Shown here: positions 5,266-8,905 of the stretch, one piece after another
Layout of the letters: each line of letters begins with the position of its first letter
Position numbering within the stretch: position 1 is the stretch's first letter
NCBI GenBank assembly: GCA_030765605.1
Contig: JAVCCG010000134.1
Coordinates: 1 to 9,693 of the forward strand
Direction of reading: 5' to 3'
DNA length: 9,693 nt
Source of the DNA: Candidatus Alcyoniella australis
GTDB taxonomy: Bacteria; Lernaellota; Lernaellaia; JAVCCG01; Alcyoniellaceae
Translations under genes and position numbers: made by a program
Notes under the pieces: generated by a model
Told to the model about the DNA's origin: nothing
The model's input: only the letters and a program-made list of their open reading frames with translations
The model's database searches: none

Positions 5266-6591
5266 TTATCCGCAGCAGCCGTCATCATCGTCGTCAGAGT
5301 TGATATCGCCGTCAGAGTCGATATCGTCGTCAGCGTCATCGAGATCATCGTCGTCATCATCATCATCGTCGGGTCCGATCACCTGGAAGGCGTTTGCCAA
5401 AGTCGCGCGCTCGCCCGTGGCGCTGGAGACGATCAGCTCGTAGACCCCGGCGCTTCGGCCTGCGGTCACGGTGCCCGTGGCTGTGGTCGCCGACTCGATG
5501 CTCAACCCTTGCAGATCGATGCGTCCTTTGGACTCGTTATAGAGAAAGAACGCGTCGTCCGCCTCGAAATTGTCGCCGCTGATGGTCAGCAGCACGTCCT
5601 CGCTGTTTTGGCCCGCAGGGGGCGAGACGTTGCTTAGCTGCGCCAGGCACAGCCGCAGGATCTGGGTTTTGTTGCTCACGGTGGAGTCGTTGATGCCGCC
5701 GATCAAAATCAGCATTCCGCCCTGGTCCGGCGCGAACACCGAGCAGGGTGCGACCAGCGGATCGTCCGGGCTCAGGTCGAACGCGTTCCAGCTCGTGCCC
5801 TCGAGGTCGAGGATTTCGCTGGAATCGCGGGGCTTCCAGGCGTTGCCCTCGCGGCCGCCGCCGCCAAGGGCGTAAAGCGAGCCGGCAACAAATCCGCCGC
5901 CCGGGCTGTAGCGCCAGTCGAGCATCTGGGGCAGGGCGCTCCAACCATCGACCGTGGGATCATAGGCATAGGCCAGAGCGTCGTCCTGCGAGCCCAAGAC
6001 GTAGAACGTTTCGCCGTCTGATGTTCCCAGGCCGAAGCCGCGGGCCGTGGGCAGGTCGGCCGGGGAGCTGTCCCAGGTGTCGGCGATCGGATCGTAGACC
6101 GCGTGGTTGCTGATATAGCTCGAATTCCAGCCGCCGGCCACGTGCAGCTTGCCGTTGACATTGGCGCAAAAGGGGCCCGATGAGTAGAACGGCATGTTGG
6201 TGCGCCAGGTCCAGGTGCTCGAGGCGATGTCGAATTCGAGGTTGTTGTTCTTAACGCTGGTCAGATCCTGGTCGTAGCCGCCGAACAAATAGAGTTTGTT
6301 GTGCTGTAACGCCATACAGGCGTTCATGTGGCCGAATCAGCCGTATGAGCAGCCGCCGCCGTTCCAGGAGTCGGCCGCGACATCGTAGACGTAGAGCGTG
6401 GCGATTTGGTTGCCGTCCTGGTCCGCGCCGGTGGTCATGTAGACCAGGCCCTCGGAGTACGCGGCCTGACCGCGATAGATCGTGGTCGGCGCGTTCTGGC
6501 CGTAGCTCCAGCCCGACTCGCAGACCTGGCCCCAAGCCAAGGTCGGCGCCAGGCACAAGATCAGCAACCCGACGATTGCGACGCAACGCAT
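5266..6591 (-). CDS. Secreted kelch-repeat + IPT/TIG protein with Asp-rich GCCG tail, interrupted by in-frame TGA
   Basis: 441 codons if the TGA at 6337-6339 (codon 85) is passed. Residues 1-20 form a Sec signal peptide (MRCVAIVGLLILCLAPTLAW). About six kelch-type blades follow (near 40-76, 88-128, 137-175, 183-218, 228-268, 278-318), with LYLFGG, LHVAGG, LYALGG and LILIGG strands and a Trp closing most blades. An IPT/TIG-like domain covers about 319-406, then an Asp-rich run 408-437 and the end GCCG. The upstream part (codons 1-84) and downstream part (from codon 86) lie in one frame and share one kelch repeat series, so they are a single gene. AGAGGAG six bases before ATG 6591 is a strong ribosome site; no comparable site serves the downstream ATG 6327. 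The TGA may be a nonsense mutation, recoded, or an error. Binding of surface glycans or proteins is plausible but unproven. Confidence 0.85.
5281..5370 (-). repeat. GAC/GAT codon repeat encoding Asp-rich tail
   Basis: Thirty codons, mostly GAC and GAT with a few Ala, Ser, Gly, Ile, Leu and Asn codons, lie just before the GCCG end of the kelch protein. The trinucleotide pattern is liable to replication slippage, so length may vary between strains. Confidence 0.85.
6308..6324 (-). promoter_or_regulatory. Small stem-loop just downstream of the in-frame TGA (SECIS-like geometry)
   Basis: On the minus strand AACGCC pairs perfectly with GGCGTT around a TGTAT loop. The 17-base hairpin begins 12 bases after the TGA at 6337-6339, and a G is the second loop base, 20 bases from the TGA. 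This meets the published loose bacterial SECIS pattern (upper stem, small loop with an early G, 16-37 bases after UGA). The pattern is permissive and could arise by chance. Confidence 0.3.
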
Positions 6592-6597
6592 GCGGCT

Positions 6598-6632
6598 CTC
6601 CTCTGTGCGGGGGATCGCACTATTTAATCATA
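6598..6632 (-). promoter_or_regulatory. Leader of kelch gene: -10 candidate, hairpin, ribosome site
   Basis: On the minus strand, TATGAT (6627-6632) is a good -10 box without a clear -35. It is followed by a 5-bp hairpin (GTGCG/CGCAC, 6605-6609 with 6616-6620) that abuts the AGAGGAG ribosome site (6598-6604). The hairpin could affect ribosome access. Confidence 0.35.
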
Positions 6633-6661
6633 TTTTGCGGAGGGGGCGGCGGTGGGACCCG

Positions 6662-6699
6662 AAAAAAAACAGGGCCCGGCAGCAATGCCGGACCCTGTT
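6662..6699 (-). terminator. fbaB: Intrinsic terminator after fbaB, leftward
   Basis: A 12-bp stem with one C/A mismatch (6668-6680 with 6687-6699) and a six-base loop is followed, on the minus strand, by a run of eight T (complement of A 6662-6669). It starts 23 bases beyond the aldolase stop and separates that gene from the kelch gene on the same strand. Confidence 0.92.
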
Positions 6700-6722
6700 G
6701 TGATGCAACTTTATCGGTGCGT

Positions 6723-7717: not shown

Positions 7718-7756
7718 TAGCAAGATCAGCACGGAAGGACAGCAGTCGGCATTGTC

Positions 7757-7785
7757 GCCGCCATCTGTTTGAGCGGCCTCTTTTT
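7757..7785 (+). terminator. Weak terminator-like hairpin in the leader of the 7868 gene
   Basis: GCCGC (7757-7761) pairs with GCGGC (7773-7777), then CTC and five T (7781-7785). The stem is only 5 bp. It may be chance or a weak attenuator. A further 6-bp hairpin (ACAAAT/ATTTGT, 7821-7826 with 7834-7839) lies just before the ribosome site. The rest of the 7644-7867 gap shows no gene. Confidence 0.25.
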
Positions 7786-7855
7786 CTCTTGCTTAAACCA
7801 TCCGAGGTCTGCTATTCAGGACAAATAGCAACAATTTGTTTATCGAACCTTCAAG

Positions 7856-7861
7856 AAGGAG
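7856..7861 (+). promoter_or_regulatory. Strong ribosome binding site that places the start upstream of an in-frame TGA
   Basis: AAGGAG sits six bases before ATG 7868. That ATG opens a signal peptide that is cut by TGA 7901-7903 but continues in frame beyond it. The next in-frame ATG, 7988, has no ribosome site and would lose the signal peptide. Confidence 0.75.
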
Positions 7862-7867
7862 TTGAAA

Positions 7868-8905
7868 ATGAAGAGTAATATGCTAATCATCTCGATGATT
7901 TGAACGCTTGTATTTGCAGGCTCGGCCGTTGCGTTCGACGGAGCCCTGCTCTACAGCGACACCGGCAGCGCTCCTGGTCCTCTGGTTATGGCTTTGGAGA
8001 ACGACCCTGATATCGACTCGATAACCGTGATCGACATCAACGTCGCCCCCCTTCCAACCCTTGAGACCCTCCAGGGCTACGACGCGGTGTTTGTTCACTC
8101 TTACAACGCTATTGTCGGTCCGGTAGCGATGGGCAACATCCTGGCCGACTACATAGACGGCGGCGGCGCAGTGGTCGTGGATCTGCCGGCCGTATCGCCA
8201 GGTGTCTGGGCGATCGGCGGCCGTTTTGCGACCGAGCAATACGCGCCGCTTATCGGAGGCGTTCCGGTGTTCACCCTGCGGTCCCTGGGCGACTTTAACG
8301 CCGATCATCCGATCATGGATTCGGTGAGCTCCGTACTGACCGATACGATCGCTGATTCGGCTTTGGTCGCGGGCGCCGACTTGGTGGCCTCGTGGGACAA
8401 CAGCGAGGAGTTGGTCGCCACCCTGGGCCCGGTTGTAGCGTTCAACTTCGTCTTTGCCGGTACGTACTTCAACCCGGCGGCCGACGATTTGGACATCATG
8501 GCGGGTAACGCCCTGGCCTGGGCCTGGGCGCAGGTGCAGCCGCCCGCAGTGGCGTCGATCACTCCGGCCAGCGGAACCAACGACGGCGCGGTGAGCGTGA
8601 CGATCAGCGGCGACTTCTTCATCGACGGCGATACCACGGTAATGCTCAGCGGCCCGGCCAAGGCCGACATCAACGGCACCGACGTGGTGGTCACCGACCC
8701 GCAGACCCTGACCTGCGATTTTGACCTGACCGACGCCGAGATCGGCGATTACGACGTGGTGGTCACCACGCCCAACGGCGAGGGCACCCTTGACGCCGGT
8801 TTCGCTATCGAGGCGGCCGGAGACGACGACGATGACGACGATGACGACGATGACGATACAGAAGATGACGACGACGATGATGACGACAGCGGATGCTGTG
8901 GCTGA
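7868..8905 (+). CDS. Secreted GATase-like + IPT/TIG protein with Asp-rich SGCCG tail, interrupted by in-frame TGA
   Basis: 345 codons if TGA 7901-7903 (codon 12) is passed. The N-terminus MKSNMLIISMI-stop-TLVFAGSAVA is a Sec signal peptide with the TGA in its hydrophobic core and cleavage expected after AVA (residue 22). Residues about 25-222 look like an alpha/beta domain of the class I glutamine-amidotransferase-like type (YDAVFVHSYNAIVG, ILADYIDGGGAVVVDLP, DHPIMD), but no Cys is present, so it is not a GATase. An IPT/TIG-like domain covers about 226-315 and aligns with that of the kelch protein (TISGDxF, GxYxxxV, GExxTL, AFxI). An Asp-rich run (319-340) and SGCCG end the protein. Without readthrough, only a fragment from ATG 7988 without a secretion signal could be made. 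The gene is divergent from fbaB. Substrate and role are unknown. Confidence 0.8.
8822..8887 (+). repeat. GAC/GAT codon repeat encoding Asp-rich tail
   Basis: Twenty-two codons, all GAC or GAT except one ACA and one GAA, immediately before the SGCCG end. It matches in position and composition the run in the kelch gene, and is likewise liable to slippage. Confidence 0.9.

Follow-up and report, generated by a model that had tools for sequence, protein, structure and literature searches.

An Asp-rich, Cys-tipped C-terminal tail on exported proteins of FEN-1099/Lernaellota and its likeness to MYXO-CTERM

A 9,693-nucleotide stretch of DNA from Candidatus Alcyoniella australis (phylum FEN-1099/Lernaellota; assembly GCA_030765605.1, contig JAVCCG010000134.1, positions 1 to 9,693 of the forward strand; hereafter the window) encodes two secreted proteins, one with a kelch propeller and one of unassigned fold, whose chains both finish with an Asp-rich run, the residues GCCG and a stop codon. 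What such an ending does on otherwise dissimilar proteins is the question raised by this locus. The tail was found throughout the sampled members of the phylum on exported proteins of many kinds, and very probably serves as a C-terminal sorting or anchoring tag. It resembles a new, shortened kind of surface-fixing tag, with the composition of the signature half of MYXO-CTERM.

The tailed genes and their recurrence

The two genes of the window and their parts, with the evidence for each in brackets, are:

5266 to 6591, minus strand: kelch propeller and IPT gene with the tail (open reading frames, Pfam kelch, stop-marked translation, and paralog L009 with a sense codon)
5266 to 5280, minus strand: GCCG codons and stop (TAA) of the kelch gene (sequence, genome pattern search)
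5281 to 5373, minus strand: Asp-rich spacer of the kelch protein (sequence)
5380 to 5637, minus strand: IPT/TIG-like domain in the kelch protein, not part of the tail (sub-threshold Pfam TIG; BLAST against the second protein)
7868 to 8905, plus strand: second tailed secreted protein, fold unassigned by sequence, with IPT (open reading frame, sequence, stop-marked translation)
8549 to 8809, plus strand: IPT/TIG-like domain in the second protein, not part of the tail (sub-threshold Pfam TIG; BLAST against the kelch protein)
8822 to 8887, plus strand: Asp-rich spacer of the second protein (sequence)
8888 to 8905, plus strand: S-GCCG codons and stop (TGA) of the second gene (sequence, genome pattern search)

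The kelch protein ends in DDDDDDDDDLDDADDDIDSDGDINSDDDDDGCCG, followed by its stop at 5266-5268 (minus strand), and the second protein in DDDDDDDDDDDDTEDDDDDDDDSGCCG (tail end DDDDDDDDSGCCG), followed by its stop at 8903-8905 (plus strand). The shared Asp run and GCCG end, first reported in a preliminary description of this DNA, were thus confirmed, as was the lack of any helix behind the signature, the stop codon following directly after the tip. The pattern DDD-x-GCCG-stop occurred 15 times in the 4.29 Mb genome to which the window belongs and 0 times for the reversed control, which excludes chance as the source of the resemblance.

A wider pattern, DDD-xx-C-xx-stop, in which only the Cys at position -3 is fixed and positions -4, -2 and -1 are free, was found 28 times in the same genome and 21-27 times in five further class genera, against 0-1 matches for the controls. 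The free positions were nevertheless occupied by Gly and Cys, the relatives having GCGC (or CCGC) and the window's own genus GCCG. A chance or low-complexity artefact was ruled out by these reversed-pattern controls. All six other class genera sampled carried the tail, mostly with the GCGC end; the seventh genome had no DDD right before the tip, its GCGC tip standing after (DDDTTP)n-like spacers. Each sampled class genome encoded about 20-45 tailed exported proteins of unrelated kinds. Within the tip codons, Gly used all four third bases and Cys both of its codons, and conservation of the tip is therefore at the protein level.

The preliminary description had proposed a new C-terminal sorting or anchoring signal, and held that the proposal would fall if no further tailed proteins were present in the genome or its relatives, or if the tail varied at random in position and sequence among orthologs. 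On secreted proteins the signature recurred genome-wide and across genera, always in the same C-terminal place, and the proposal survives this test. The case for a phylum-wide sorting tag is strong.

Outside the class, the tail was rare. The pattern D-x-GCGC-stop gave 16-44 matches per genome in four class genomes (G001-G004), whereas 384 other genomes gave 0-2 each. The GCCG form gave 15 matches in 84,980 GTDB (r220) species genomes, a scan that may omit records of the window's own genome; five were in one FEN-1099 metagenome-assembled genome (FR_14) and the remainder were single. A tail common across bacteria was thereby ruled out for the GCCG form in GTDB r220 and for the GCGC form in the 384 genomes. 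To our knowledge the phylum is known from metagenomes only, and the genomes used here are metagenome assemblies in which gene calling and signal-peptide prediction were scripted. FEN-1099 is a candidate phylum for which the names Lernaellota and Podoxiota have been proposed (PMC13248872).

The bodies that precede the tail were compared in 140 loci fetched by their tails, together with search loci, which yielded 221 open reading frames that have an Asp-rich end with a Cys close to the stop codon; of these, 177 end in CGC or CCG. Because the loci were fetched by tails, the counts describe tailed proteins and not the whole proteome. The 177 tailed proteins fell into 69 body families (41 singletons), including metallophosphoesterases, GDPD, SBBP-type propellers, kelch with IPT, FG-GAP and many hydrolases. 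Many families were tailed in several genera, as in GDPD, which ended in SGCCG in the window's own genome and in SGCGC in another genus. The tail is nearly confined to proteins exported by a type I signal peptide: of 161 scorable tailed proteins, a simple hydropathy script recognized such a signal in about 139; an internal transmembrane-like stretch was present in 2 of 138. Four genomes (L232 in G002, L257 in G003, L277 in G001 and L282 in G006) encoded small tailed proteins of one family, about 180-260 amino acids long, in tandem clusters, and some of these proteins had a further Asp-rich run directly after the signal peptide.

The IPT domain, which the preliminary description had made part of a recurrent module, proved incidental and was ruled out as a module part: it is absent from most tailed families, whose only common elements are the Asp run and the Cys tip. 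The IPT-like regions of the two window proteins were 27% identical over 88 amino acids (BLAST, E = 2e-4), and Pfam TIG scored below threshold in both. The label 'GATase-like', previously given to the N-terminal half of the second protein, was not confirmed either, as no match to this half was found in Pfam, NCBIfam or PDB sequences.

Both window genes are interrupted by a single in-frame TGA. The kelch reading frame truly starts at 6591 (minus strand), with a signal peptide at its start, and is split as assembled into a signal-peptide part (6337-6591) and a remainder (5266-6327) by an in-frame TGA at 6337-6339. The second gene starts with the ATG at 7868 and has an in-frame TGA at 7901-7903, within the signal peptide. 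Once these codons are read across, both proteins have a type I signal peptide at the N-terminus. A paralog of the kelch gene, L009 (41% identity over 321 amino acids), is encoded in the same genome and has the same tail and a sense codon at the position of the kelch TGA. The two in-frame TGAs may be mutations or assembly errors; TGA otherwise terminates 119 of the 177 tailed genes, more than any other stop codon, and an altered genetic code is therefore unlikely. Immediately behind the kelch stop, in the kelch frame (5188-5265, minus strand), SRLLTLVLILGLVMISCDDDDGDES runs to a stop of its own; by its sequence it may be a tiny lipoprotein-like peptide with a TTG start and the lipobox VMIS-C ahead of DDDD, or else what remains of a helix.

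Relation to MYXO-CTERM and other C-terminal tags

The tail had been set apart from known sorting tags by its lack of a helix behind the signature. It does, however, match the signature of the MYXO-CTERM/MrtX system of Myxococcota (TIGR03901/NF040593). The two share GCGC or adjacent Cys, a disordered acidic/Gly/Ser spacer upstream, a type I signal peptide, a wide range of unrelated bodies, and orthologs that swap one kind of end for the other. The MYXO-CTERM signature has been called 'a generic GCGC motif', with adjacent Cys in TraA; its Cys is required for processing, and Lgt is the leading candidate for the lipidating enzyme (PMC11980579).

Full MYXO-CTERM proteins scoring above the curated cut-off were present in all seven class genomes, where they coexist with the tail, and several of them had an Asp run and GCGC ahead of the helix and Arg cluster. 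Interchange of the two ends was observed in one metalloprotease found in three genera: the form ending in GCGC-stop (L295) was 56% identical over 315 amino acids (E 1e-117) to L092 and 36% identical over 308 amino acids (E 2e-59) to L065, both of which continue from GCGC into a helix and Arg cluster. In addition, the gene L284 (G006) reads SGCGC-TGA-ACRRNPGLPLAVLMFAIGFAALLVARRKK-stop, with the MYXO-CTERM helix and Arg cluster readable in frame behind the TGA; this sequence is nearly identical to the helix found in two G006 MYXO-CTERM proteins. Taken from its sequence, L284 is possibly a snapshot of the change from the full tag to the helix-less tail. Hidden helices reached by stop-codon read-through were ruled out in general, since helix-like sequence behind the stop occurred at 4.5% in the read-through frame versus 5.1% and 2.8% in the other frames, L284 being the clear exception.

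The tail differs from MYXO-CTERM in that the chain stops at the signature, at Cys or Gly, with no Arg-rich cytoplasmic C-terminus; because the helix and Arg cluster were tested for and found absent, the tail is not itself a MYXO-CTERM member. Some tailed proteins matched NCBIfam 'myxosortase-dependent' families, and the TIGR03901 profile hidden Markov model gave no match above cut-off in the window proteins, nor among the matches listed (25 of 52 families) for 53 tailed proteins; in these listings no NCBIfam family was seen to match the tail itself. The helix-less form was absent from the sampled MYXO-CTERM-rich genomes (G034 and G131), and a search of the available literature found no description of a helix-less MYXO-CTERM or of these tails. 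It is likely that the tail descends from MYXO-CTERM or is its equivalent, and it probably works like MYXO-CTERM minus cleavage. It would then consist of the signature half (an Asp/Gly/Ser-rich disordered spacer plus GCGC or GCCG), with the helix and Arg cluster deleted, so that the gene would already end at the myxosortase cut point.

Six of the seven class genomes encoded MrtX-like CPBP proteases, every one scoring under the curated cut-off, and the three that were checked had the catalytic motifs EExxxR and HxxxN; the profile search found none in G003. MrtX was rejected as the enzyme of the tail, given that a helix-less tail needs no cutting and that G003 has no MrtX-like match. Tandem sets of small Cys-rich MYXO-CTERM proteins were observed in two genomes (L067 and L071; G004 and G005).

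GlyGly-CTERM/rhombosortase and PEP-CTERM/exosortase are likewise C-terminal tags on many unrelated exported proteins. They have a helix and basic end behind the signature and do not require Cys, and neither was among the NCBIfam matches listed for the window and tailed proteins. A similar double-Cys end is found on eukaryotic Rab proteins, which are prenylated at two Cys at the extreme C-terminus (CxC, CC or CCx); these are cytosolic whereas the tailed proteins are exported, and the likeness is an analogy only.

The Cys tip, lipoproteins and Lgt paralogs

The -3 Cys was present in all 177 selected tails, whose dominant ends were GCGC, CCGC or GCCG. Among the Asp-rich ends of the sampled loci, 170 had a pair of Cys within the final three residues and 19 had one Cys near the end, including GCGK, GCGN, GCGD and GCGT; since these minority tails retain a single Cys, the -3 Cys is the constant residue. 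Over 40 residues, the spacer contained a median of 22 Asp, with means of 0.7 Glu and 0.2 Lys/Arg.

Credible lipoproteins (type II signal with lipobox) numbered 2 among the 177 tailed reading frames. By a stricter count, 3 of 115 tailed proteins had a lipobox, whereas among exported proteins of other kinds it was 59 of 242 (p = 3e-8); the tailed positives are doubtful, their Cys lying inside a type I signal. Tails and lipoboxes thus avoid each other, which fits one anchor per protein and favours an anchor through Cys. The same is favoured by the N-terminal lipoproteins of the class, which show the mirror image of the tip: a lipobox Cys, often within CGCG, followed by an Asp run. In L244, L267, L268, L273 and others, Cys-x-Cys at the lipobox precedes Asp runs (CGCGDDDDD, SCSCGDDDD). 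The window contains one protein of this type, with its lipobox Cys at 803-805 and an Asp-rich run at about 812-868:

734 to 1744, plus strand: probable N-terminal lipoprotein with an FGE-sulfatase domain (sequence; Pfam PF03781, E 9e-42)

N-terminal lipoproteins elsewhere (Lgt/LspA; surface lipoproteins dependent on the type II secretion system, T2SS; the Bacteroidetes lipoprotein export signal, LES) also have a Cys adjoining an Asp/Gly/Ser-rich stretch, and a lipid on the tail Cys is proposed here. They differ from tailed proteins in using the opposite end of the chain, tailed proteins having no lipobox and a type I instead of a type II signal peptide. In other bacteria, Asp or Gly adjoining the acylated Cys is associated with escape from the Lol route and delivery to the surface by the T2SS (PMC12802150), and in Bacteroidetes SDDDD acts as a signal for export to the surface (PMC5080379). 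The earlier suggestion of a Cys attachment point behind an Asp spacer thereby gains indirect support from the mirror arrangement and from the exclusion with the lipobox.

Three Lgt genes were present in all seven class genomes (G000-G006; loci L314-L333), whereas among 139 other near-complete genomes only 4 had three or more. Of these four, two were MYXO-CTERM-rich; within the sample, MYXO-CTERM was confined to genomes encoding three or more Lgt genes, and all 14 tested genomes that had one or two copies lacked it. G131 belongs to a family in which two more genomes had three and four Lgt genes. In the tree, Lgt group A, which sits in an ileS-lspA-lgt operon, was placed near the Lgts of MYXO-CTERM-rich genomes (support 0.87), and groups B and C were sister clades confined to this class. 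A 'C-terminal Lgt' shared with the MYXO-CTERM-rich genomes was looked for and none was identified, groups B and C appearing class-specific. The window's genome has groups A and B and a divergent third copy with an NFFNSE-type motif, which replaces group C. The genus with this divergent copy is also the one using GCCG and not GCGC. Lgt neighbourhoods varied relative to tailed and MYXO-CTERM genes.

The explanation judged best as a whole, at a little better than an even chance, is that the tail is a FEN-1099 cell-surface tag made of the MYXO-CTERM signature half, its Cys modified and its proteins delivered to the surface. From the comparisons above we infer the surface location, the lipid attachment, an Lgt as the enzyme and the T2SS as the carrier. 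Proteins would be exported by Sec via the type I signal peptide; the -3 Cys would be modified at the membrane, most likely through thioether lipidation by an extra Lgt paralog, and C-terminal cleavage would be unnecessary. The Asp run beside the lipid would block the Lol route and hold the protein at a distance from the membrane, and delivery to the surface would fall to a machinery such as the T2SS. Lipidation of the tail Cys is about evenly balanced, and an Lgt paralog as the enzyme is a tentative assignment, less likely than not. More doubtful still is a C-terminal lipoprotein pathway in which Lgt groups B and C would put diacylglycerol on the C-terminal Cys of exported proteins, with neither helix nor sortase, yielding surface proteins held at the C-terminus by way of the Asp spacer.

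Several points weigh against the modified surface tag. The Cys modification is proposed from sequence only, and the tail offers no helix or uncleaved signal peptide by which a membrane enzyme could capture it. Most tails have two Cys, and a single lipid does not require two. The MrtX-like matches are all below the curated cut-off, with none in G003, and the window's own genome is without Lgt group C. The relation of Lgt expansion to MYXO-CTERM and tails is a correlation in very few lineages; the extra copies might act instead on the many N-terminal lipoproteins, and because the class is one clade, the association of Lgt with the tail represents one evolutionary event. Moreover, tail-based sampling of loci misses tail-less orthologs except for chance finds.

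The two Cys found in about nine in ten tails (CxC or CCx) would be accounted for if the pair formed disulfides or bound metal, cross-linking the proteins mutually or to a surface component, and the preference of the spacer for Asp over Glu would be accounted for if the run bound Ca or other cations. Some thioredoxin reductases have redox-active vicinal tails of the GCCG type. Such cross-linking is nevertheless unlikely: the minority tails keep the -3 Cys alone, the bodies are too diverse for a single redox chemistry, and both the near-exclusion of lipoboxes and the interchange with helix-bearing MYXO-CTERM would be left unexplained.

Alternatively, the tail could be a mere export or recognition signal for an outer-membrane secretion machine, the proteins being released unanchored. 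The tail retains no helix as a holdfast, many tailed bodies are hydrolases, and Myxococcus xanthus TraA without its MYXO-CTERM is released via the T2SS (PMC11980579). A pure recognition tag would not need an invariant Cys, however, and the kelch, FG-GAP and similar bodies, together with the avoidance of lipoproteins, suggest anchoring, so that release is considered improbable. That the tail is a decaying MYXO-CTERM, left as inert low-complexity sequence by a nonsense or shortening event that removed the helix, agrees with the remnant behind the stop of L284 but is highly improbable, with 1 clear remnant among 177 and a tip conserved class-wide in about 20-45 proteins per genome while synonymous codons vary freely.

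If the tail is a modified surface tag as proposed, a helix-less C-terminal tag would join the known protein-sorting systems and MYXO-CTERM biology would extend past Myxococcota. The tail also bears on which enzyme modifies the MYXO-CTERM Cys: as it ends at the signature, lipidation is separate from cleavage, and Lgt candidates could therefore be tested without a myxosortase. For annotators, it would allow prediction of the surface proteome of FEN-1099/Lernaellota.

At the start of the window (1-462, plus strand), a leucine-rich repeat protein is truncated by the contig start, and its repeats are near-identical in DNA.

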